Positions 15,150-29,092 of a stretch of 64,000 nt of DNA are shown here, one piece after another. The DNA is taken from NCBI RefSeq assembly GCF_900104685.1, contig NZ_LT629755.1:2232001-2296000 (forward strand), in the 5' to 3' direction. The notes beneath the pieces were generated by a model, which did no database searches, was not told the origin of the DNA, and worked only from the letters and a program-made list of their open reading frames with translations. Within the stretch, counting starts at the first letter, position 1; every line of letters begins with the position of its first letter. A program made the position numbers and the translations under genes. The stretch is from Agromyces flavus (GTDB lineage Bacteria; Actinomycetota; Actinomycetes; Actinomycetales; Microbacteriaceae).

Positions 15150-15460
15150 CTACGCTGCCGACGCCAGGTCGACTGTCGCGTTCGGCACGAATGCCACGAG
15201 AACCGCACCGTCGGCGGCATCCACTTTCACCGCTGCGCCGTCACCGTGGGCGCCGGTGACGAAGAGGTCGGCGATGCGGTCCAGGAACTCGGGCCGCATG
15301 GCCTCGCGCACCTTCCCCATCACGCGCCGGCGCACTTCATCCTGCGACGAGAACCCCGAGCCATCCGTCGACGCCACGAAGCCGAGCGCACCCGACGCGA
15401 CGCGAGGAACTCCGAGCCGAGGTTCGAGGTCATGATGTCTACCGTGTTGCGGAAGTCGAC
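15150..15460 (-). pseudogene. Remnant copy of a clp ATPase 3' end
   Basis: This stretch repeats the last part of the ClpC-type gene at 17179-19794. It reads [22 protein letters not shown], then after a one-base deletion [31 protein letters not shown] and [10 protein letters not shown] to NATVDLASAA. About 220 bases are missing between RPEFL and RIADLF; both flanks in the intact gene carry CGATGCGGT, so the deletion probably occurred between these 9-base repeats. Similarity to the intact gene stops sharply at GTCGAC (15455-15460), three bases from the patatin stop. It cannot encode an ATPase. Confidence 0.85.
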
Positions 15461-15462
15461 AC

Positions 15463-17031
15463 TTACTCCGGCCTGGACAGGCCAGCACCACGCAGGAGCG
15501 CGCTGAGGCGCCGATTCCGTTCGGTGAGCTCCCCCTCGGTGAACTCCGCGCATGCGCGGTTCAACCACTCGACGAGATCGCCATTGAGACCGAAGCGAAG
15601 GTCAAGGCGCGCGATTCCCTGAGTCGCACGCCCGATCGCGTCGCGGCCGCGCATCGCCAGGCACGCGTTCAGGTAGCCGCTCGCAACCACGAGCATGGCG
15701 GTGCTCCGCCGCACGGCCAGCAGCCCAGTTCGCACACCGGTGGTTGCGAGACGTGCACGTACGCACGCCCACTCCAGGCTCGTGAAGGCGACAGACGGGA
15801 ACTCGACGGCGTTGTGGCGCCACTGGCGGAACGCCCCCGACCGCAGGGACACCGCGTTTTGGTTCCCGCCGTCGACCGCCGGTGCTCGTTCACTTGCGAT
15901 CTCGTCGATTAAGGCGGGCACGCGCACGGTGGAAATGAGACCAGCGTCAGCGGTCACGGCATCAAGCTGAAGGTGCGACTCGTACATCACTCTGAGTGAC
16001 CGGAGAGCGTGATAAACGACCCCCACCCCTGGAATCGTGACGAGGATCCCCACGAGTCCACTGAGCCGAGGAGTGGCACCCGAGGCATCGACGATCACGG
16101 ATCGCTGTACACATCTCTCGCAGAGCCACGCGACTTGGTCTCGATGCACCTTGCAGTCGATCGCTGTCGACGAGATTCGAGCACGCGCGGCAGAAATGCC
16201 GACGATCGACTGAACCGCTTCATAGCGCCCCAATCCGTACTGCACGCCGAGGTTGCCCGTAACGCCTCCGTCGGCCAACCATGCCGCGCGAGTCCCGTCC
16301 GGCGTTGGTTGCCACGTCCAATCGGGGCCTCGATCAATTGGCGGCCTTCGCGGCCTGAATCTGGTCGGGGGGAAGGCGGGAGGGAAAGCGGTGGTAGCGC
16401 GCAGCACTTTCGCGACGCTGACATCGCGCGCGTCGAAGACCCCTCTGCGATCAGACGAGGCGAGACAGACGGCCGAACTGGATTCGAAGAACAGCGGGCC
16501 TGCGCTGCCGATGTCAGATGTCGCGAAGACGTGGAGTCGTTCCCAGTCCGTACCGAGCGTCTCCCCGAGGCGCTCCCGGCGACCGAAGGGCAGGAAGAAC
16601 CAGTGCAGCCAAATGCGCGTGCTCAGTTGAAGGCCGATTGCGATCCACAAGAGAACGAGAGCCGCCAAGACCCAGCCCTTGGCCTCGGGACCCACCGCGC
16701 CGAGAAGCAGGATGGACGTGACTGCGGCCGACCCGATCGTCACCACCAACACCACGAGAACGAGAATCCAGGACCGGGCGCGATTGGTGAGAAGATCGAA
16801 GATCTTGCCAAGCTCGCTGGGCATATCGGATTCGCTCGGGCGGCGGGTCATCAACCACGCATTCACCAGTCCTCCGCCCGAAACGGAGACCACCCGCTTG
16901 ACCGCCGGCCACGCACCCTCGCTCCCGATGAAGTAGATCACCCCGATTGCCGCGAGTGCAGCTCGGACTCCACCCCCCGACAAATACAGCGTCCAACGAT
17001 GGCCGCGAGAAGCATCTCCCTCGATGAGCAT
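15463..17031 (-). CDS. Patatin-like phospholipase with membrane helices
   Basis: The 522-residue protein starts with the patatin oxyanion loop SGGGVRAA (18-25) and a nucleophile elbow SVSGGG, where Ser51 stands in a variant of GxSxG. The Asp partner is in the DGG of WLADGGVTGNLG. Two hydrophobic helices (WILVLVVLVVTIGSAAVTSILLL and WVLAALVLLWIAIGLQL) lie between Ser and Asp, so it should be a membrane-bound lipid acyl hydrolase. Such enzymes also act as effectors of phage defence, but no cyclase or sensor is adjacent. Base composition is lower in G+C than its neighbours. It is bracketed by the two clp copies. Confidence 0.78.
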   Translation of the reverse strand: MLIEGDASRGHRWTLYLSGGGVRAALAAIGVIYFIGSEGAWPAVKRVVSVSGGGLVNAWLMTRRPSESDMPSELGKIFDLLTNRARSWILVLVVLVVTIGSAAVTSILLLGAVGPEAKGWVLAALVLLWIAIGLQLSTRIWLHWFFLPFGRRERLGETLGTDWERLHVFATSDIGSAGPLFFESSSAVCLASSDRRGVFDARDVSVAKVLRATTAFPPAFPPTRFRPRRPPIDRGPDWTWQPTPDGTRAAWLADGGVTGNLGVQYGLGRYEAVQSIVGISAARARISSTAIDCKVHRDQVAWLCERCVQRSVIVDASGATPRLSGLVGILVTIPGVGVVYHALRSLRVMYESHLQLDAVTADAGLISTVRVPALIDEIASERAPAVDGGNQNAVSLRSGAFRQWRHNAVEFPSVAFTSLEWACVRARLATTGVRTGLLAVRRSTAMLVVASGYLNACLAMRGRDAIGRATQGIARLDLRFGLNGDLVEWLNRACAEFTEGELTERNRRLSALLRGAGLSRPE

Positions 17032-17178: not shown

Positions 17179-19794
17179 TTAGGCGGCCATGTCGACGGTC
17201 GCGTTCGGCACGGATGCGACGACGAACGCGCCGTCCGCGGCATCCACTCGCACCGCCTCGCCGTCGCCGAGGGCGCCGGTGACGAAGAGGTCGGCGATGC
17301 GGTCGTCGATCTCGCGCTGGATCAGGCGCCGCAGCGGGCGGGCACCGTACTCGGGCTCGTAGCCGCGCTCCGCGAGGAGCGCCACCGCGGCATCCGTCAC
17401 CTCGAAGCCGATCTCGCGAGCGGCCAGCCGGCGCTCGGTCGCACCCAGCATGAGGCGCACGATCGACGCGATCTCCGAGGCCGAGAGCTTCTGGAACAGC
17501 ACGATCTCGTCGATGCGGTTCAGGAACTCCGGCCGCATGGCCTCGCGCACCTTGCCCATCACGCGCGCCTTCACGTCCTCCGAAGAGGAGAACCCCGAGC
17601 CATCCGTCGACGCCACGAAGCCGAGCGCACCCGACCGCGACGCGAGGAACTCCGAGCCGAGGTTCGAGGTCATGATGACCACCGTGTTGCGGAAGTCGAC
17701 CGTGCGACCCTGGCCGTCGGTGAGGCGTCCGTCGTCGAGCACCTGCAGCAGCAGGTTGAACACGTCGGGGTGCGCCTTCTCGATCTCGTCGAACAGCACG
17801 ATCGAGTACGGGTTGCGCCGCACGCGCTCGGTGAGCTGGCCGGCCTCGTCGTAGCCGACGTATCCGGGAGGGGCGCCGACGAGCCGCGACACGGTGTGCC
17901 GCTCGCCGAACTCGCTCATGTCGAAGCGAATGATCGCGCCCTCGTCGTCGAACAGCGACGACGCCAGCGCACGCGCCAGCTCGGTCTTGCCGACGCCGGT
18001 CGGACCCAAGAACAGGAACGAGCCGACGGGCCGCTTCGCGTCGCCCATGCCGGTGCGGTTGCGCCGCACCGAGCGGGCGACGGCGGTGACCGCGTCATCC
18101 TGCCCGATGACCCGGGCGTGCAGCTCGCCCTCGAGGTTCGCGAGGCGCTCGCGCTCGCCCTCGGTAACCCGATTGACCGGGATGCCGGTGGCCCGCGAGA
18201 TCACGGCGGCGATCTGCGCCTCGTCGAGGGTCGTCGAGGCGGCGGTCGTGTCATCCGTCGATGAACCGGATGACACGGCACGACCCTGCGCGGCGGCCTT
18301 CTCGGTCGCCTCGTCGAGCCGCTCCTGCACCTTCGAGATCTCGTCGCGGATCCGCGACGCCTCCTCGTAGTGCTCGGCGCGGACGGCCGCGTTCTTGTCG
18401 GCCTCCAGCTCGGCCAGGCGGGAGATGAGCGCCGAGACGTCCACCTTCACGCCCAGCTTGAGGCGCAGGCGTGCGCCGGCCTGGTCGATGAGGTCGATGG
18501 CCTTGTCGGGCAGCACGCGGTCGGTGAGGTACCGGGCGCTGAGCTCGACGGCGGCGCGCAGCGCGTCGTCGGTGTAGGTGACGCCGTGGTGCTCCTCGTA
18601 CGCGGGGCGGAGGCCCTGCAGGATGAGCACGGAGTCCTCGATCGACGGCTCGCCGACCTTCACCGGCTGGAACCGGCGCTCGAGCGCGGGGTCCTTCTCG
18701 ATGGTGCGGTACTCCTTGAGCGTGGTCGCGCCCACGAGGTGCAGCTCGCCGCGCGCGAGGCGGGGCTTCAGGATGTTGCCCGCGTCCATGCCGCCCTCAC
18801 CGGCACCACCGGCGCCGACGACCGTGTGCACCTCGTCGATGAAGACGATGAGCTCGCCCCGGTGCTCGGCGATCTCTTCCATGGTTTTGGTGAGGCGCTC
18901 CTCGAAGTCTCCGCGGTAGCGGGTGCCGGCGAGCATGCCGGGCAGGTCGAGCGCTACGACCCGCTTGCCGAGCAGCGCCTCGGGCACGTTCTCCTCGACG
19001 ATCGCGCGGGCGAGGCCCTCGACGATCGCGGTCTTGCCGACGCCGGCCTCGCCGATCAGCACGGGGTTGTTCTTCGTGCGGCGGCTGAGGATCTCGATGG
19101 TCTGCTCGATCTCGTCGGCACGGCCGATCACGGGGTCGAGCTCGCCGTTCATGGCGCGCTTGGTGAGGTCGAGGCCGAACTTGTCGAGCATGGGGGTGGC
19201 GGATGCCGCGGCATCCGTCTGCTCGCCGTAACCGTCGTTCGCGGTGTCGGTGCCCTCGCCCTGAGCGGATGCCACGTGCTCGCCGAGCCCGGCCGCGAGC
19301 GCGTCGGCGGTGACGCCGGCGCGCGCGAGCACCTGCCCGGCGGGGGCGTCCTGCCCGAGCACGAGGGCGAAGAAGAGGTGCTCGGGGTCGATGTACGTCG
19401 ACCCGCTCGACCGCGCGACCTGATACGCGTGGAACAGCGCGCGGCTCGCGCTGGGGGTGATCATGGCCGAATTGACGTCGGCGGTGTCGGATGCCGCGGG
19501 CAGCCGCGCCTCGGTCGCCGTGATGATGCGCTCGGGGCTCGCGCCGACGCGCGTGATCGCCTGCGCGACGGACTCGTCCTCGACGATGACGCGCAGGATG
19601 TGCAGTGCATCGAGCTCGGTCTGCCCGCGCTCGAGCGCGAAGCGTCCGGCGCGCTGCAGGATGCTCTGGGTGCGCGAGGTCAGGAACCGGCTGAGGTCGA
19701 TCGACCGCGCCTGCCTGGCCTGCTCACCCGCGAGGTAGCGGGCGAGGAACTCGTCGAACGAGCTCGCGCCGGCCTCGTTGAAGTTGTCGGGCAC
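17179..19794 (-). CDS. ClpC-type AAA+ unfoldase (Clp protease ATP-binding subunit)
   Basis: The 871-residue protein has a divergent Clp N-domain (1-170), a first AAA+ module with Walker A GEAGVGKT and Walker B VFIDEVHT, a short UVR-like middle coiled coil ([24 protein letters not shown]) and a second AAA+ module with GPTGVGKT and [13 protein letters not shown]. The short middle region separates it from ClpB disaggregases. LGF in SGALGFVAS could be the ClpP-docking tripeptide. It should unfold substrates for ClpP. The start is GTG 19794, with AGGAGG seven bases upstream. A HAIR site lies upstream, pointing to HspR heat-shock control. It is probably a second, accessory Clp ATPase, since the N-terminus is not that of housekeeping ClpC. 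Confidence 0.9.
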
Positions 19795-20188: not shown

Positions 20189-22483
20189 CTAGTCGTTCCG
20201 GCCAGTTCCGCCGAGATCAAAGTGGGAGTGCAAGGTCTGGAGAAAGGCATACTCCTCCTCAGTCACGGCCTCGCCGCCACTGTGGTGCGTCTTCTTCCGA
20301 ACCTCGTTGAGCGTGACTACCCACGACAACTTGCTCTTCCATGCCCCGGCCTTTCGGTCGCTCGGCAAAGTGTAAGCCTCGTCATATATCTCGTCCCACA
20401 ACGCCTTCGATCCCTGCTGCATGATGCTGTGATAGTCGATCAGGTAAAGACAATCCCACCAATCGACGGTGACACCCTCGGGTGCTTCGTACTGCTTTTC
20501 CGCACGGAGTGACTCTGCACGGGCATACACGGCTTTCGGCACACCGTCCTTGATCCATGTCCCGCGGAACCGGTCCTGGAGGCGCCGACGGATGTCCTGC
20601 TTCATGTGGTTCTCGATGTCGTTAATCATCGAATATGACTCTTGATTAAATTGCTTTTCCTGATTGGCTTTCCACTCGTCGAATCCATCAGGCATGAAAC
20701 CGTCGACGCATTCGACCAGTGCGGCCTGAAACCGGCGAAGATATTTGGTCGGCCCACCACTGCCGAACCAACTCTTGAACTCTGCGATATCCTCAACTGA
20801 AAGGGGGGCAAGATGGTTGAGCAGCGGATCCAAAATCTCGCGCACCTGTGCGAATGTTTCCTTCGGGGTATTGACACGCGCATCTAGCTTCCCTTGGTCG
20901 GCGAGAAAGTCGACGATGTCACCGACGACCCGAAGCATCGCCTCGGTGCCGGGATTCGTGAAGACAAAACCCCCCTCGCCCTTGCCAGCGTTCCACTGAA
21001 GTGGCAAGCGATCGCGAGCGTGATCAAAACAGTACTCAAGAAATTCCGTAAGAGGTCTCAGAGTAGCTTCATTCGAGCCGCGATAGAAGGATCCGACCTT
21101 CTTCATCTCGCTGCTAGTGAACTCCCCAATGAAACGCCCGCGGTCTATCCCTCGGTTAATGGCGTCGAGAGTGATACATAGCCGATCGGTGCTCTTCTCC
21201 TCGCCAAGGATTACTCTTCCACGCAACGGGGAAGACTTTCGCTCACCGAGTTGCTGAGCGACCTTCAACTTCAGTGCTTGAGCCCGACGCCGCAGATCGA
21301 TGCTCGTCCACTCGAGATCGGCCTTGAGAGTCAGCCGAAGGTTCTTGGGGACGGCTTGCTGGTTCTCGTTGATCTGCATGAACAATTCGAGCTGCTTGTC
21401 CCCGGGAAGGTCGACGAACGCCACAACAGGGAGCAACTCAGTGTTCGCGCGAGCGGAGTTGGCGAAGCCGTAGAGCCGATGTTGACCGTCGATAACATAT
21501 GCAGATCTGTACTTTTGAGGTAGATGAAGAACACCAAGTCTGCTCTCGCCCGCTTGAGTTGTCGCACGCTCGAATCGAAGACCTCTCCGACCAGTCTCGA
21601 TGTTGATGATGAGGGAATTGGGGAAGAAGCCACCGCGCCCGACAAATTCCGTGACGCGCTTCAAGCGCGACCTCTTGATGACTCGCTGGTATGTCGGCAT
21701 CCACTGAGAGTTCGCGTTGTTCCGATGTAAGACGTACGCGAGCTTCAACAAGCGGTCAGGCTCGATAGCAAAGGAGTAGTAGGTGTGGCCACCCATCTTT
21801 CCTTGGATCGCAGCAACTGTTGCATCCATCGCCTGAATCTTGTCGCCCTGGAACAAATTCCCAAGGAACTGATACTTGGCAGCCACGCCCAGGTGATCAG
21901 CCAACTCGTGGTAGTAGGCGACGGACTCCTCATCAAGGTACGCGATGTCTGCATTTGAGATCCGTTCGCGAGTTTCCTCGCTCACGCCGATGTTGTTTGT
22001 CGCGAAGACAAATTTCACCTTGTGGTCCGGAAAGAGCTCGCGCAATTGGCGCGTAACTCCTTTCCGGTAGCCCTGGATACTTTCGATCTCCGTCTTGAAA
22101 GCATAAGTGGGAGCCTGATCCTTATCCGAGGACTTGCACTCAATTACCAGGACAACATCGTCGTCGGCAGCGAACACGTCGAGTTGCTTTGTCTCGTTGT
22201 CGGATTTCCCGTAACGAATCTTTAGTTCCCGTGTCCGATTCATTGAGGAGAAGCCGAGCCGAGCGCACATCGCCCAGACGCGATCTTCGAATGCCAGGCC
22301 GTGCGATTTCGGCCGCCGCATCCAGACCGCGCTCTTCAGCACCTTGTCAACCACCCAGCCGTTAGCCTCGTACTCACCTTGGCGCGCGAGGGGAACCTTC
22401 TCCCTGAGGTCTCTGGAAAGACGGCGGGCAGTCGCGGCCCGCAGTTGCGTAGCGGGCAGAAGGTCAAGTTCGACTGTGGTCAC
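20189..22483 (-). CDS. PD-(D/E)xK nuclease-DGQHR fusion protein
   Basis: The 764-residue protein joins a restriction-endonuclease-like N-terminal domain (Glu66 in FEDRVW, Asp102 in KQLDVF, Glu115 and Lys117 in VIECK) to a DGQHR domain (DGQHR at 332-336, then INENQQAVPKNL near 371-382). DGQHR proteins related to DndB and DpdB are found in phosphorothioate and deazapurine DNA-modification systems, where they act as NTP-dependent regulators or modification factors. The 380 residues beyond the motif are helical and unassigned. It overlaps the D12 methyltransferase stop by four bases, so the two are co-translated. Base composition is AT-rich for the window, pointing to transfer. Confidence 0.82.
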   Translation of the reverse strand: MTTVELDLLPATQLRAATARRLSRDLREKVPLARQGEYEANGWVVDKVLKSAVWMRRPKSHGLAFEDRVWAMCARLGFSSMNRTRELKIRYGKSDNETKQLDVFAADDDVVLVIECKSSDKDQAPTYAFKTEIESIQGYRKGVTRQLRELFPDHKVKFVFATNNIGVSEETRERISNADIAYLDEESVAYYHELADHLGVAAKYQFLGNLFQGDKIQAMDATVAAIQGKMGGHTYYSFAIEPDRLLKLAYVLHRNNANSQWMPTYQRVIKRSRLKRVTEFVGRGGFFPNSLIINIETGRRGLRFERATTQAGESRLGVLHLPQKYRSAYVIDGQHRLYGFANSARANTELLPVVAFVDLPGDKQLELFMQINENQQAVPKNLRLTLKADLEWTSIDLRRRAQALKLKVAQQLGERKSSPLRGRVILGEEKSTDRLCITLDAINRGIDRGRFIGEFTSSEMKKVGSFYRGSNEATLRPLTEFLEYCFDHARDRLPLQWNAGKGEGGFVFTNPGTEAMLRVVGDIVDFLADQGKLDARVNTPKETFAQVREILDPLLNHLAPLSVEDIAEFKSWFGSGGPTKYLRRFQAALVECVDGFMPDGFDEWKANQEKQFNQESYSMINDIENHMKQDIRRRLQDRFRGTWIKDGVPKAVYARAESLRAEKQYEAPEGVTVDWWDCLYLIDYHSIMQQGSKALWDEIYDEAYTLPSDRKAGAWKSKLSWVVTLNEVRKKTHHSGGEAVTEEEYAFLQTLHSHFDLGGTGRND

Positions 22484-23352
22484 AGTTCCTCGATGTTCGT
22501 GAACAAATACTCCTCAGCACTCCCGCGTGCCGCCGCTTTGCCCGCGATAACGTTTCGACGCGAGACTGTAAGGCGTCGGCCGTGGGTAGAAAACAACTCG
22601 TCGATTGAGTGATGCGCAGCATTCGTCAAGATGTATCTTGCGCCGATTTCAACCAAGGTTCGAACTGATTCTGCCAGTCGTCTCTGATCATCAAAAGAAA
22701 ACAAGTGCTGGTTGTACTTGACGAACCCGTTGTTGTTGTGGGCGACTGTATAAGGGGGATCTAGAAACACGAGGTCACCTTCACGGACGTCACCGAGGGC
22801 GCGCTCAAAGTCCGCCGCGTTCAGACGTGCACCCTTGAGACGTTCGCTGGCAGCGCGCAGTGCCGCGCGGTCAGGAATGTTTACCGACTTTCGATTTCCA
22901 AACGGAACGTTGTACTCGCCCCTTAGATTCACCCGGAAAATGCCGTTGAATGACGTGTGATTCAGGTAGATGAATCGCGCCGCACGATCGATCGCATCAA
23001 CCGGTGATGCCGCGCGCGCAGCGTAGTAGTGATCCCGAGTGTTCTCATAACGCTCTAGCCGGTCGTGTATGTCCATAGGATGATCGCGAACTTCCCGATA
23101 GACCTCGATGAGATCGGTGTTTAGGTCTGAAAGGACGGCCTCCTCCAACCGGGGAAGTGCGAAAAAGACCGAACCTCCGCCAACGAAGGGCTCGTGGTAC
23201 CGCTTGACCTCGATGCCAGAGGTTAGGCGAAGGATCTGCGGCACGAGCCACCTTTTGCCGCCCGCCCAGCGGAGGAACGGCGGGATCCTTTCGGCCGCGA
23301 CGCTCCGTGCCCGTTCCGCGAGATCAACAGCGGTGTCGGTGCTCGCAGTCAT
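22480..23352 (-). CDS. D12-class (Dam/DpnM-like) DNA adenine-N6 methyltransferase
   Basis: The 290-residue enzyme has FLRWAGGK (26-33), the SAM-binding motif, YHEPFVGGGSVFF, SDLNTDLIEVY and the catalytic DPPY (198-201), in the alpha-class order of Dam-like enzymes that methylate adenine-N6 in short palindromes such as GATC. Full length, no damage. It is first in a two-gene operon with the nuclease-DGQHR fusion (ATGA overlap). The pairing with a nuclease-bearing partner argues for a modification/restriction role over housekeeping Dam function, which most actinobacteria lack. Target sequence unknown. Confidence 0.9.
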   Translation of the reverse strand: MTASTDTAVDLAERARSVAAERIPPFLRWAGGKRWLVPQILRLTSGIEVKRYHEPFVGGGSVFFALPRLEEAVLSDLNTDLIEVYREVRDHPMDIHDRLERYENTRDHYYAARAASPVDAIDRAARFIYLNHTSFNGIFRVNLRGEYNVPFGNRKSVNIPDRAALRAASERLKGARLNAADFERALGDVREGDLVFLDPPYTVAHNNNGFVKYNQHLFSFDDQRRLAESVRTLVEIGARYILTNAAHHSIDELFSTHGRRLTVSRRNVIAGKAAARGSAEEYLFTNIEEL

Positions 23353-25026: not shown

Positions 25027-25437
25027 CTAGCCCCTTCCTCTGAAACCGGGGTTGTCCCGTCTATCGTCCCGGAGCAATTCAGCGAGCCTGCTGAAGTCTG
25101 GCAACTCTGAGAGATCAGCCGTACCCACAAGGTAGTGAGCATCTGGCGGCTCGCTCAAGTGGAGTGCGTAGCCTTCCTGATTCAACGTACTCTCTGCGAC
25201 CACTGCCACGCGCTCCCCTCCACAGAATCGTGACGCGTGTTCGCATATGCGCCGAACCGCATCGTCGAGCGACTCGCCAACGTCGACGTGCGTAGCGAAC
25301 ACCGAGACGCCACGCCTCGCGGGTCGTCCCTTCGCTTGATCGGACAGCGCCTGCTTGGCCGCACTCTTTTCTAGTCCCTCGCGAGTGAACGGCGCGAATC
25401 GAACGACGATCGCGGAGCCGTCGTTCAATGCCACCAT
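25027..25437 (-). CDS. Hypothetical island protein
   Basis: From ATG 25437 (MVALNDGSAIVVRFAPFTREGLEKSA) the protein has 136 residues in mixed alpha/beta pattern and a polar Arg/Asp-rich end (RDDRRDNPGFRGRG). GTG 25446 is an alternative start. No family is recognised. TATATC on the minus strand about nine bases before the start may be a -10. It is first of three tightly packed unknown genes, just beside a decayed ABC-F gene. Confidence 0.55.
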   Translation of the reverse strand: MVALNDGSAIVVRFAPFTREGLEKSAAKQALSDQAKGRPARRGVSVFATHVDVGESLDDAVRRICEHASRFCGGERVAVVAESTLNQEGYALHLSEPPDAHYLVGTADLSELPDFSRLAELLRDDRRDNPGFRGRG

Positions 25438-25579
25438 CCCCCACACGATATAGCAGCGCCCTGTCGCTCCACCGGCGGCGAGTCCGAACTAGCAGGCTCG
25501 ACGCACCGGGTACCCGGTGACCGTCGCGTGCACAGAGACCCATCAGAGCGCCCCGGCCGCCAGCGCCCGCACCGCGGCC

Positions 25580-26115
25580 CGCCGTCGAACACGAGCAGCC
25601 GTTCGGCGACCTTGTCGACGAAGAAGCGGTCGTGCGAGACCACGATGACCCCGCCCGGGAAGTGCATGAGCGCCCGCTCCATCACCTGGGTGGAGGTGAT
25701 GTCGGTTGATTGGTGGGCTCGTCGAGCACGATCACCGCCGCGCCCGAGAGCAGGCTGGGCGATCGCGACGCGGCCGCGCTGGCCACCGGAGAGGGTGCCG
25801 ATCTTCTGCTGCAGGCCGGCCTCCGAGAAACTGCAGCATCGACGGGAACCGGTTCACGTCCTTCTTCGTCGCCGTGAACGCGAGTGAGTCCGAGTAGGCG
25901 TTCACCGCGTGGCCGACGGTGTCGTCGAGATCCAGCTCGGCGTAGACCCGGTTGTACGAGACGAACCTGACGCCCTTCGCCCAACGGACGGTTCCGGCAT
26001 CCGCTTCGGTCTCGCCGGTCAGCACGTCGAGCAGCGTCGACGTGCCCGACCCGTTCGAGCCGGGCGCCGCGACCCGGTCGCCGCTGCAAGCGACGAGAGC
26101 CCCCGCAACTCCGAA
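25580..26115 (-). pseudogene. Decayed ABC-F-type ATPase fragment
   Basis: Pieces of one ATP-binding cassette occur in order over three frames: LVACSGDRVAAPGSNGSGTSTLL (Walker A with Thr in place of the essential Lys), GETEADAGTVRWAKGVRF, LDLDDTVGHAVNAYSDSLAF, an ABC signature in another frame, VIVLDEPTN (Walker B), then MERALMHFPGGVIVVSHDRFFVDKVAERLLVFDGG. This is the C-terminal cassette of an ABC-F ribosome-protection or translation factor, with at least two frameshifts and no first cassette. It is not functional and marks the right side of the island. Confidence 0.8.
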
Positions 26116-27947: not shown

Positions 27948-28523
27948 GTGAGCGCAGGAACCCTCATCCGCGCCGCGCGGCGGAGCCGGAAACTCACCCA
28001 GCAGGCGCTCGGCCGACGTGCCCGGCTGTCGCAGTCGCACCTCTCGCTGATCGAGCGCGGGCATCAGAATCCCTCGTTCGAGGCGGTCGAGCGTGCCCTC
28101 CGCGCCGCCGGCCACCGGCTCGTCTCGGTGCCGACCGTCCGAGACGACGCGGCGGCGATCGCCGCAGACATCCGCTTCGCCGTCGCCGACGGTCGCGAGA
28201 GCGGGGCGCTGCGCCGATTCATCCAGCTCAACGACAACCTGAACGCCGAACACGGCGCGGCCCGCTTCGCCCTGGCCATCTCACCGCCCGAGCCGACCGG
28301 CAGCCGCCAGTGGGATGCCGCGCTCGCCGCACTCGTCGCGCACCACCTCGTGGCCGAGCAGCTGCCCATTCCTGACTGGGCCGTCAGCCCCGAGCGAACG
28401 CTTCGACGCCCGTGGGCCCTCGGCGAAGGCCCCTACACGTTGACGCCGACGCCCGACCGGGTGCCGCCGGAGTTCGCTCGGCGCCGCGTCCTCGTCGACG
28501 CAGACACGCTGGTCAGCGCATGA
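27948..28523 (+). CDS. XRE-family helix-turn-helix protein of a toxin-antitoxin-like pair
   Basis: The 191-residue protein has an XRE domain (LTQQALGRRARLSQSHLSLIERGHQNPSFEAVERAL) in the first 60 residues and a C-terminal region ending TPDRVPPEFARRRVLVDADTL, similar to the tail of the XRE protein at 14395. The start is GTG 27948 with GGAGGTG upstream; TAGTAT at 27913-27918 is a likely -10. Its stop overlaps the nucleotidyltransferase start (ATGA). Gene order and coupling suit an antitoxin or autorepressor followed by its toxin. Confidence 0.85.
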   Translation: MSAGTLIRAARRSRKLTQQALGRRARLSQSHLSLIERGHQNPSFEAVERALRAAGHRLVSVPTVRDDAAAIAADIRFAVADGRESGALRRFIQLNDNLNAEHGAARFALAISPPEPTGSRQWDAALAALVAHHLVAEQLPIPDWAVSPERTLRRPWALGEGPYTLTPTPDRVPPEFARRRVLVDADTLVSA

Positions 28524-29092
28524 CCCGCTTCGAACGCGACGAGCTCGTCGTTGGGCTCCGGCATCTCGTTAGCACCCTCAACGAGCGCGGCCAGCGCAGC
28601 GGCATCGGGATCGTGGGGGGCGCCGCGCTCGCACTCCGCTACTTCGATCGCGAGGCCACTGTTGACATCGATGCGCGCCTGATCGGCGATCATGAGCTCG
28701 TGCTCGAGGCAGGTCGCGCGATCGCCGAAGCCAACGGATGGCCCGACGACTGGCTGAACGACAAGGCCGCGGGCTTCGTCCCGGACTACGGCCGGCGCTC
28801 CACCGAATGGGAGACACTTCATGACGACGGTGTCGTCGTCATCCAGGTCGCCTCCGCCGAGGCGCTTCTCGCGATGAAGCTCCGAGCCAACCGGCCCGGC
28901 CGCGACGACACCGACATCGCCAAGCTCATGGCGATCTGCGACATCCGGACCCTCGACGCCGCGGAGGAACTGTACGAGGACTTCTACTCGGGTGAAGCGC
29001 TGCCAGATCGGGCGGTTCGGATGGTGACGCGAATCATCGAGGTCGGCCTGCCGCCGACGCCGGAACCGCCGCCGGCGCCCGAGATCGGCTGA
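28520..29092 (+). CDS. Nucleotidyltransferase-fold protein (DUF6036-like, toxin candidate)
   Basis: The 190-residue protein has the nucleotidyltransferase signature GIVGGAALALRYFD followed by TVDIDARLIG, where the two aspartates bind metal. Later AMKLRANRPGRDDTDIAKLM matches the conserved Lys and Asp helix of AbiEii/MenA-type enzymes. Such proteins inactivate tRNA or other targets by adding nucleotides, though this group is not characterised. ATG 28520 overlaps the XRE stop by four bases. The broken copy at 14083-14398 has the same order of partners. Confidence 0.8.
   Translation: MTRFERDELVVGLRHLVSTLNERGQRSGIGIVGGAALALRYFDREATVDIDARLIGDHELVLEAGRAIAEANGWPDDWLNDKAAGFVPDYGRRSTEWETLHDDGVVVIQVASAEALLAMKLRANRPGRDDTDIAKLMAICDIRTLDAAEELYEDFYSGEALPDRAVRMVTRIIEVGLPPTPEPPPAPEIG

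Follow-up and report, generated by a model that had tools for sequence, protein, structure and literature searches.

In the window analysed here, a stretch of 64,000 nucleotides of the Agromyces flavus contig NZ_LT629755.1 (positions 2,232,001 to 2,296,000), two overlapping genes on the reverse strand encode a D12-class DNA adenine methyltransferase and a large fusion protein, the effector, in which a predicted PD-(D/E)xK nuclease module, a DGQHR domain of the ParB/Srx fold and a HEPN ribonuclease (RNase)-like module are joined in one chain (Table 1). The two genes can be described as a pair akin to restriction-modification systems, whose three-part ParB/Srx effector probably senses modification.

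Table 1. Features of the pair in the window, followed by regions at other loci that are mentioned in the text. Fractions refer to the sets of members described in the text.
Feature	Position	Strand	Remarks
D12-class (Dam/DpnM-like) DNA adenine N6-methyltransferase	22480..23352	-	290 residues, ATG start, first gene of the pair, frame open
DPPY catalytic motif, methyltransferase residues 198-201	22750..22761	-	D198, P199, P200, Y201 invariant in 45/45 aligned, window included
Effector, PD-(D/E)xK - DGQHR (ParB/Srx) - HEPN fusion	20189..22483	-	764 residues, GTG start, frame open
GTGA overlap, 4 bases	22480..22483	-	effector GTG start and methyltransferase TGA stop, read from sequence
N-terminal PD-(D/E)xK nuclease module, residues 1-212	21848..22483	-	core 61-191; predicted
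Nuclease catalytic stretch, Asp102...Glu115-x-Lys117	22133..22180	-	D102 48/52, E115 43/52, K117 42/52 plus 6 Arg
DGQHR / ParB-Srx-fold domain, residues 224-390	21314..21814	-	putative nucleoside triphosphatase (NTPase) and DNA-mark sensor
DGQHR motif, residues 332-336	21476..21490	-	D332, Q334, H335, R336 64/64; G333 63/64
C-terminal HEPN (AbiF/Swt1-like) module, residues 608-760	20204..20662	-	RNase-like domain, putative RNase activity
HEPN R-x4-H motif, R729-K-K-T-H-H734	20282..20299	-	R729 and H734 each 62/64
Plasmid and locus neighbour regions	L138 1822-10139; L143 6947-14991; L022 194-2651
Distant viral DGQHR loci with Dam-like methyltransferase	L084, L087, L090, L092-L094, L097-L101
PDC-M34 examples	L127 686-1899; L136 671-1896		A = DUF5343, B = Swt1-like HEPN

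The first gene encodes a Dam/DpnM-like enzyme, as an earlier note made from the sequence of this DNA had proposed. It scores 196.9 bits against TIGR00571 (dam), above the curated cut-off of 114.85 and hence within that family, matches PF02086 (E 2.2e-46) and has DpnM (2dpm) as its best solved relative by sequence (E 1.4e-51). It is also the only TIGR00571 (Dam-family) match in the genome of the organism, a single contig of 3.69 Mb. The base-contact residues of E. coli Dam (K9, L122, R124, P134 and Y138) served for a comparison of recognition sites. The equivalents of R124 and P134 are retained in 38/38 family enzymes outside a Dpn clade described below, and in the same 38 the equivalent of K9 is Arg in 31 and that of L122 is Ile in 27. 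The equivalent of Y138 is Arg or Lys in 37/38 methyltransferases of standard pairs as against Tyr in 7/7 Dpn-clade enzymes, suggesting that the usual writer may lack strict GATC specificity. Its recognition site could be GATC or another xATC; a firm GATC assignment was dropped because the first-base residues are unlike those of Dam and DpnM.

The effector starts with GTG, so the junction of the two genes reads GTGA and not the ATGA given in the earlier note, although the four-base overlap itself is there; its sequence suggests that the two genes are translationally coupled. The N-terminal module has the core fold and the D-ExK residues of PD-(D/E)xK nucleases, and the note had correctly placed Glu66, Asp102, Glu115-x-Lys117 and the DGQHR residues 332-336. 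The match to TIGR03187 (DGQHR) spans residues 225-523 at 140.7 bits (curated cut-off 58.85), which makes the effector a member of this family. What the note had overlooked is the HEPN module, which lies within the approximately 380 C-terminal residues it left unassigned and which combines the helical fold and the R-x4-6-H motif of the HEPN superfamily (AbiF/Swt1-like). A novel fold for this part of the protein was considered and dropped, since the family alignment gave R-N-x3-H and a domain model matched AbiF. Neither the effector nor its profile gave anything useful when searched against the sequences of solved structures; the three predicted folds and their motifs are established by family alignment and domain models.

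Homologues of the effector, sought in genome, plasmid, phage and viral collections, were compared at 71 loci: 58 genome-contig loci (L037 repeating L036), six full-length loci among the viral-contig matches listed, five loci from sampled genomes (L125 and L139-L142) and two plasmid types (L138 and L143, one record examined for each, with five plasmid records covering at least 80% of the effector query). The sampled hits L102, L103, L123 and L130 were left uncounted because they share their genome or all match figures with L009, L039, L004 and L050 and so repeat these, and L030, L037 and L043 could not be judged for want of usable upstream DNA, leaving 68 assessable loci. In 65 of these 68 the effector gene has a D12 methyltransferase gene near it on the same strand, no more than 250 bp away in 56, about 0.9 kb away in seven, and 2.6 kb and 4.0 kb away in L028 and L003, respectively. 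Among the 56 close loci it is downstream of the effector in L027, L029, L067, L068, L069, L141 and L142 and upstream in the others; of the 65 partners, those of L015 and L051 are broken and those of L027 and L048 are truncated at a contig end. No D12 methyltransferase was seen at the plasmid loci L138 (about 3.9 kb on each side) and L143 (more than 14 kb) or at L139 (1.6 kb upstream and 0.6 kb downstream), the exception among the five new sampled-genome loci, four of which have the partner. The survey of homologues called for in the earlier note shows constant pairing. The 68 loci share descent and are not 68 independent events. Relatives over nearly the whole 764 residues with a neighbouring methyltransferase in several phyla (the records are named Actinomycetota, Bacteroidota, Pseudomonadota, Spirochaetota and others) put the association beyond chance. 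Long members are few. Among 296 genomes of the phylum there were two, the organism's own and L139. In 395 genomes around G298 the seed turned up with one repeat and one new member, in 396 genomes of the order the organism's own with one repeat and one new member, and in 337 genomes around G297 the seed with two new members.

Methyltransferase and effector distances are correlated (r 0.83 over 36 loci, reached in 0/2000 permutations), also in the 23 loci outside Actinomycetota and Alphaproteobacteria (r 0.49, 0/2000 permutations) and over all 42 loci including the Dpn clade (r 0.51). Such a correlation, like the paired adenine methyltransferase itself and the PD-(D/E)xK fold with its triad intact in the window and in 42/52 members, is what would be seen in a plain type II restriction-modification pair, in which the PD-(D/E)xK module is the endonuclease, the DGQHR domain and the middle of the protein recognise the target and the HEPN-like part is structural. 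By sequence, the locus has what such systems are defined by, a methyltransferase with an adjacent nuclease-bearing partner; site-specific cleavage blocked by the partner's methylation would be presumed. This reading is unlikely, and the points that weigh against it come from the conservation of the effector and from its changing partners.

Conservation was assessed in a 52-member alignment (50 of the 58 genome-contig loci together with L061 and the window) and in 64-member counts that add 12 further members; L030, L043 and L045 were left out of the 52 as partial, L037 as the same match as L036, and L047, L051, L055 and L058 as broken. Residues Q266, R267, N372 and Q375 of the effector are invariant beside D332, Q334, H335 and R336 (52/52, each 64/64 after the additions). 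The HEPN residues R729 and H734 fail in L022, where the frame changes before the motif, and in L064, a provirus copy with both residues altered; the second motif position, residue 730, is Asn in 53/64 and Lys in five, the window among them. Of the 52 members, 42, window included, have an intact nuclease triad (D102, E115 and either K or R at 117), and the remaining ten have lost it. It is also intact in nine of the 12 added members; two of the three misfits have Gln for Glu and, as far as sequence tells, may still be active, and the third has Thr for Lys. The ten losses need at least ten changes on a quick maximum-likelihood tree, and all ten members retain the HEPN Arg and His along with the DGQHR motif, a poor fit with a plain type II endonuclease. 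Conservation is thus unequal among the domains of the aligned effectors, and since the deoxyribonuclease (DNase) has been lost in some lineages, selection has probably been steadier on the RNase arm as the output. The ratio of nonsynonymous to synonymous divergence (dN/dS) by domain was unusable, most synonymous sites being saturated. When dN of the nuclease domain is divided by the average dN of the other three regions, six hand-picked pairs in which one triad is lost give 1.0-3.1 and nine intact-triad pairs give 0.9-1.9, overlapping ranges in which some members recur.

Broken copies are distributed unevenly between the two genes. The effector is broken beside a full-length methyltransferase in L022 (frame change), L047 (three pieces), L055 (two) and L058 (six), both genes are broken in L051, and the sole reverse case is L015, where a truncated methyltransferase stands beside an open effector that has lost its nuclease triad. 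This excess of effector-side breakage (four against one) is the direction of decay to be expected of a methyltransferase that gives protection from the effector, and fits an antidote role, although the numbers are small and sequencing errors in draft genomes are possible.

The methyltransferase itself is exchanged between lineages. In one clade of metagenome-assembled Bacteroidota (by record title), consisting of six aligned members and L045, the effector follows DpnM and DpnII; the six form one side of a branch of the maximum-likelihood tree with 99% support in the Shimodaira-Hasegawa-like approximate likelihood-ratio test (SH-aLRT). DpnII (PF04556) was confirmed by Pfam in five of the seven cassette loci and by clustering in the other two, and a gene of one further cluster, present in six of the seven, is an N6_N4 methyltransferase of the DpnA kind in 3/3 scanned. 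The pair resembles DpnII-type (DpnM-DpnII-DpnA) restriction-modification in its D12 adenine methyltransferase and, in these seven loci, in sitting within such a cassette, but the effector is not DpnII-like. Elsewhere a larger D12 enzyme (406-480 residues; Pfam was run on L008, L022 and L028) is the partner in L008, L022, L028 and L029, through three changes on the tree. In L003 a D12 enzyme, an AAA protein and McrC precede the effector, and L028 and L029 have an additional pair of AAA ATPase and HNH genes. The placement of the effector in a cassette that already contains the DpnII endonuclease speaks against a plain type II pair, and its occurrence with several kinds of methyltransferase accords poorly with an enzyme of one fixed cut site.

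The same loci could be taken to mean that the effector is a PrrC-like guard which, instead of reading DNA, senses that the methyltransferase or a companion restriction enzyme has been inhibited or lost, and which then kills by its HEPN RNase. The seven DpnM-DpnII cassettes, the AAA-McrC neighbours in L003 and the ATPase-HNH pairs in L028 and L029 suit such a role, for which PrrC offers a precedent (PMC3710099). However, most loci show no other restriction enzyme between or beside the two genes, and the N-terminal DNase would be superfluous to a guard, yet its triad is retained in 42/52; a guard is therefore judged decidedly unlikely.

Some of the neighbourhoods have other gene contents. On the alphaproteobacterial plasmids of Novosphingobium and Agrobacterium a homologue of the effector lies beside a second DGQHR protein, a radical-SAM protein, HATPase or ATP-binding proteins and a PIN protein, with no D12 methyltransferase (annotations partly Pfam-confirmed, the Agrobacterium radical-SAM and DGQHR matches being below cut-off), and L022 likewise has another DGQHR protein and a radical-SAM protein upstream. 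The plasmid radical-SAM/DGQHR neighbours are possibly another DNA-marking module. Among the matches listed, 11 of 32 distant viral DGQHR loci carry, within the fetched stretch, a Dam-like methyltransferase 41-45% identical to that of the window, the background rate of Dam in phages not being taken.

Several known systems share parts with the pair. The effector has the DGQHR domain (TIGR03187) of DndB and DpdB but falls far below the equivalog cut-offs (85 of 450 bits for Dnd DGQHR protein 1, 58.8 of 300 for DpdB). It is the only DGQHR match in the one-contig genome, in which DndC and DpdA have no match at E 0.001, the other Dnd and Dpd genes not having been searched; these results agree with the earlier note, which saw no dnd or dpd gene nearby, and membership of either system was rejected on the scores and on the absence of DndC and DpdA. 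No model of PADLOC-DB 2.0.0 spans the whole effector, which gave part-length matches to DpdB (224-439), PDC-M34B (613-664) and CARF-PDDEXK (65-124). Its C-terminus is homologous to the B subunit of the PADLOC candidate PDC-M34 (PDLC04592 matches 37/52 members at E 1 or better, best 4.6e-13); in scanned loci that candidate consists of a DUF5343 protein and a Swt1-like HEPN protein, with neither a methyltransferase nor a DGQHR domain in those proteins, and L122, L129 and L135 resemble it by reading, their partners not having been scanned. The plasmid pNL1 of Novosphingobium aromaticivorans carries a 30.5% homologue of the effector, and Saro_3948 is presumably a tag of that species and may be the pNL1 protein itself. 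In Table 1 of PMC3710099 (2013), Saro_3948 stands in the Swt1-like HEPN row with a ParB-fold domain and a 'mostly active' HEPN, as in the effector; it is a table entry only, and the accessible part of that paper gives it no methyltransferase pairing, N-terminal nuclease or function. PrrC and DUF499-HEPN likewise unite a HEPN RNase domain and an NTPase and are tied to a DNA-modification system, but they have an ABC or BrxC-like ATPase instead of ParB/Srx and other partners (PMC3710099, PMC12839542), the same papers arguing that restriction-linked HEPN domains are second-line effectors. Among the matches listed in a literature search, no paper was recognisably on this pair, and none on PDC-M34 was among the papers covered; an earlier description of the pair is possible, subscription papers and preprints lying mostly outside the search.

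The closest parallels are DndI and SspE, which also join a ParB/Srx-superfamily NTPase domain to a nuclease and are paired with a DNA-marking module (PMC11662687, PMC13251355). In the accessible portions of these papers their mark is phosphorothioate, made by a multi-gene set, their nuclease is a C-terminal HNH and no HEPN is described, whereas the present pair has a putative adenine-methylation mark from one gene, an N-terminal PD-(D/E)xK module and an added HEPN. DndI is a DUF262 protein of the ParB-like superfamily with a DGQQR motif, whose ATPase is stimulated by the self mark and abolished by R87A; ATP is required for telling marked from unmarked DNA, the mark leads to departure from self DNA, and DndI harms cells without it (PMC11662687). 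By analogy, one methyltransferase gene would do the job of the phosphorothioate gene set, with an RNase output added.

The preferred reading, to which a little less than an even chance is given, is that the pair is a self-contained immunity module of the restriction-modification type, in which the DGQHR NTPase reads the methyl mark and unmarked DNA is attacked by DNase and RNase. The methyltransferase, encoded first, would mark adenines of the host DNA. The ParB/Srx-fold DGQHR domain would probably bind and hydrolyse NTP and read the presence of the mark, so that NTPase activity would rise on marked self DNA and the effector would let go, as proposed for DndI. On unmarked phage or plasmid DNA the effector would stay engaged, with the DNase cutting DNA and the HEPN RNase cutting RNA, and the infected cell would be stopped or killed. 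NTPase activity, N6-methyladenine reading, RNase activity, phage defence and the order of expression of the pair are what we infer in this scheme.

Weighing against this scheme is that SspE and DndI respond to their mark in opposite ways (PMC11662687, PMC13251355). In SspE the nuclease is licensed by GTP hydrolysis, which the mark sets off, and cells lacking the mark come to no harm; were the effector to follow this recognise-hydrolyse-activate course, the methyl mark on self DNA would switch it on and the methyltransferase would be its activator and not its antidote. The broken effectors beside intact methyltransferases, more frequent than the reverse, fit an antidote better and so favour the DndI direction, small as the numbers are, and an SspE-type response is considered very improbable. 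A modification-dependent (type IV) enzyme against methylated or otherwise modified foreign DNA would have a precedent in GmrSD, whose DUF262 is a cousin of DGQHR (the relation of GmrS, DndB and the DGQHR domain and their ParB/Srx fold are argued in PMC4619093), but the neighbouring methyltransferase would make the host's own DNA a target and the direction of decay is against it; hardly any weight is given to this reading. The earlier note's proposal of a self-contained restriction-modification or modification-dependent unit is partly supported.

The genomic setting of the pair bears on its spread. The low GC content reported in the note is real: the 1-kb bins between 20 and 23 kb have 0.55-0.58 and those between 23 and 26 kb have 0.61-0.65, whereas most of the window has about 0.70. 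Of 41 searched genomes of the genus, the organism's own among them, 40 have a relative of the flanking clp-like ATPase gene (17179-19794) at 80% identity or more, and the 41st has a match of only 48%. Three of five fetched relatives match again at 25543, after 3.2-4.4 kb of other DNA as against 5.7 kb in the window, and the other two have no match at 25543 (alignments over 150 bp); the differing DNA between these points indicates that the pair occupies a variable slot. No convincing direct repeats were found at the island edges, and a consensus promoter scan gave no match, with 1.2 expected by chance. The low-GC insert in a variable slot, the rare and patchy distribution and the homologues on plasmids and in viral contigs would also suit a non-immunity epigenetic or maintenance (toxin-antidote) unit that spreads selfishly without phage. 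Such a unit is compatible with immunity, restriction-modification systems serving both immunity and selfish maintenance, and as a separate explanation its probability is slight. Elsewhere in the region, a truncated second copy of the clp-like ATPase 3' end (15163-15460, 85-91% identical to parts of 17179-19794) adjoins a patatin-like gene (15463-17031). Remnants at 25425-26103, where the match to three relatives resumes, read like an ABC ATPase gene (by reading, with no library scan), and at 27948-29092 the gene of a helix-turn-helix protein precedes that of a DUF6036 nucleotidyltransferase whose AbiEii match is weak and below cut-off; the two are possibly an AbiE-like toxin-antitoxin pair.

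Beyond the immunity module preferred here, a wider claim, more doubtful, is that the family is a new class of modification-licensed immunity. It would be the first in which a ParB/Srx (DGQHR) NTPase reads an N6-methyladenine self mark and unmarked DNA fires a PD-(D/E)xK DNase and a HEPN RNase from one chain, with an interchangeable writer that is Dam-like, a larger D12 enzyme, a DpnII cassette or, on some plasmids, perhaps the radical-SAM/DGQHR module with another mark. If this is true, a two-gene unit would join an adenine-methylation self mark to ParB/Srx NTPase sensors, which in the accessible sources are otherwise phosphorothioate readers, and attack on DNA and RNA would be united within one restriction effector. 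Effectors with a dead DNase would be predicted to remain protective through their RNase, what stand-alone DGQHR proteins sense would become testable, and the two-gene unit would be small enough for rebuilding in a laboratory strain.

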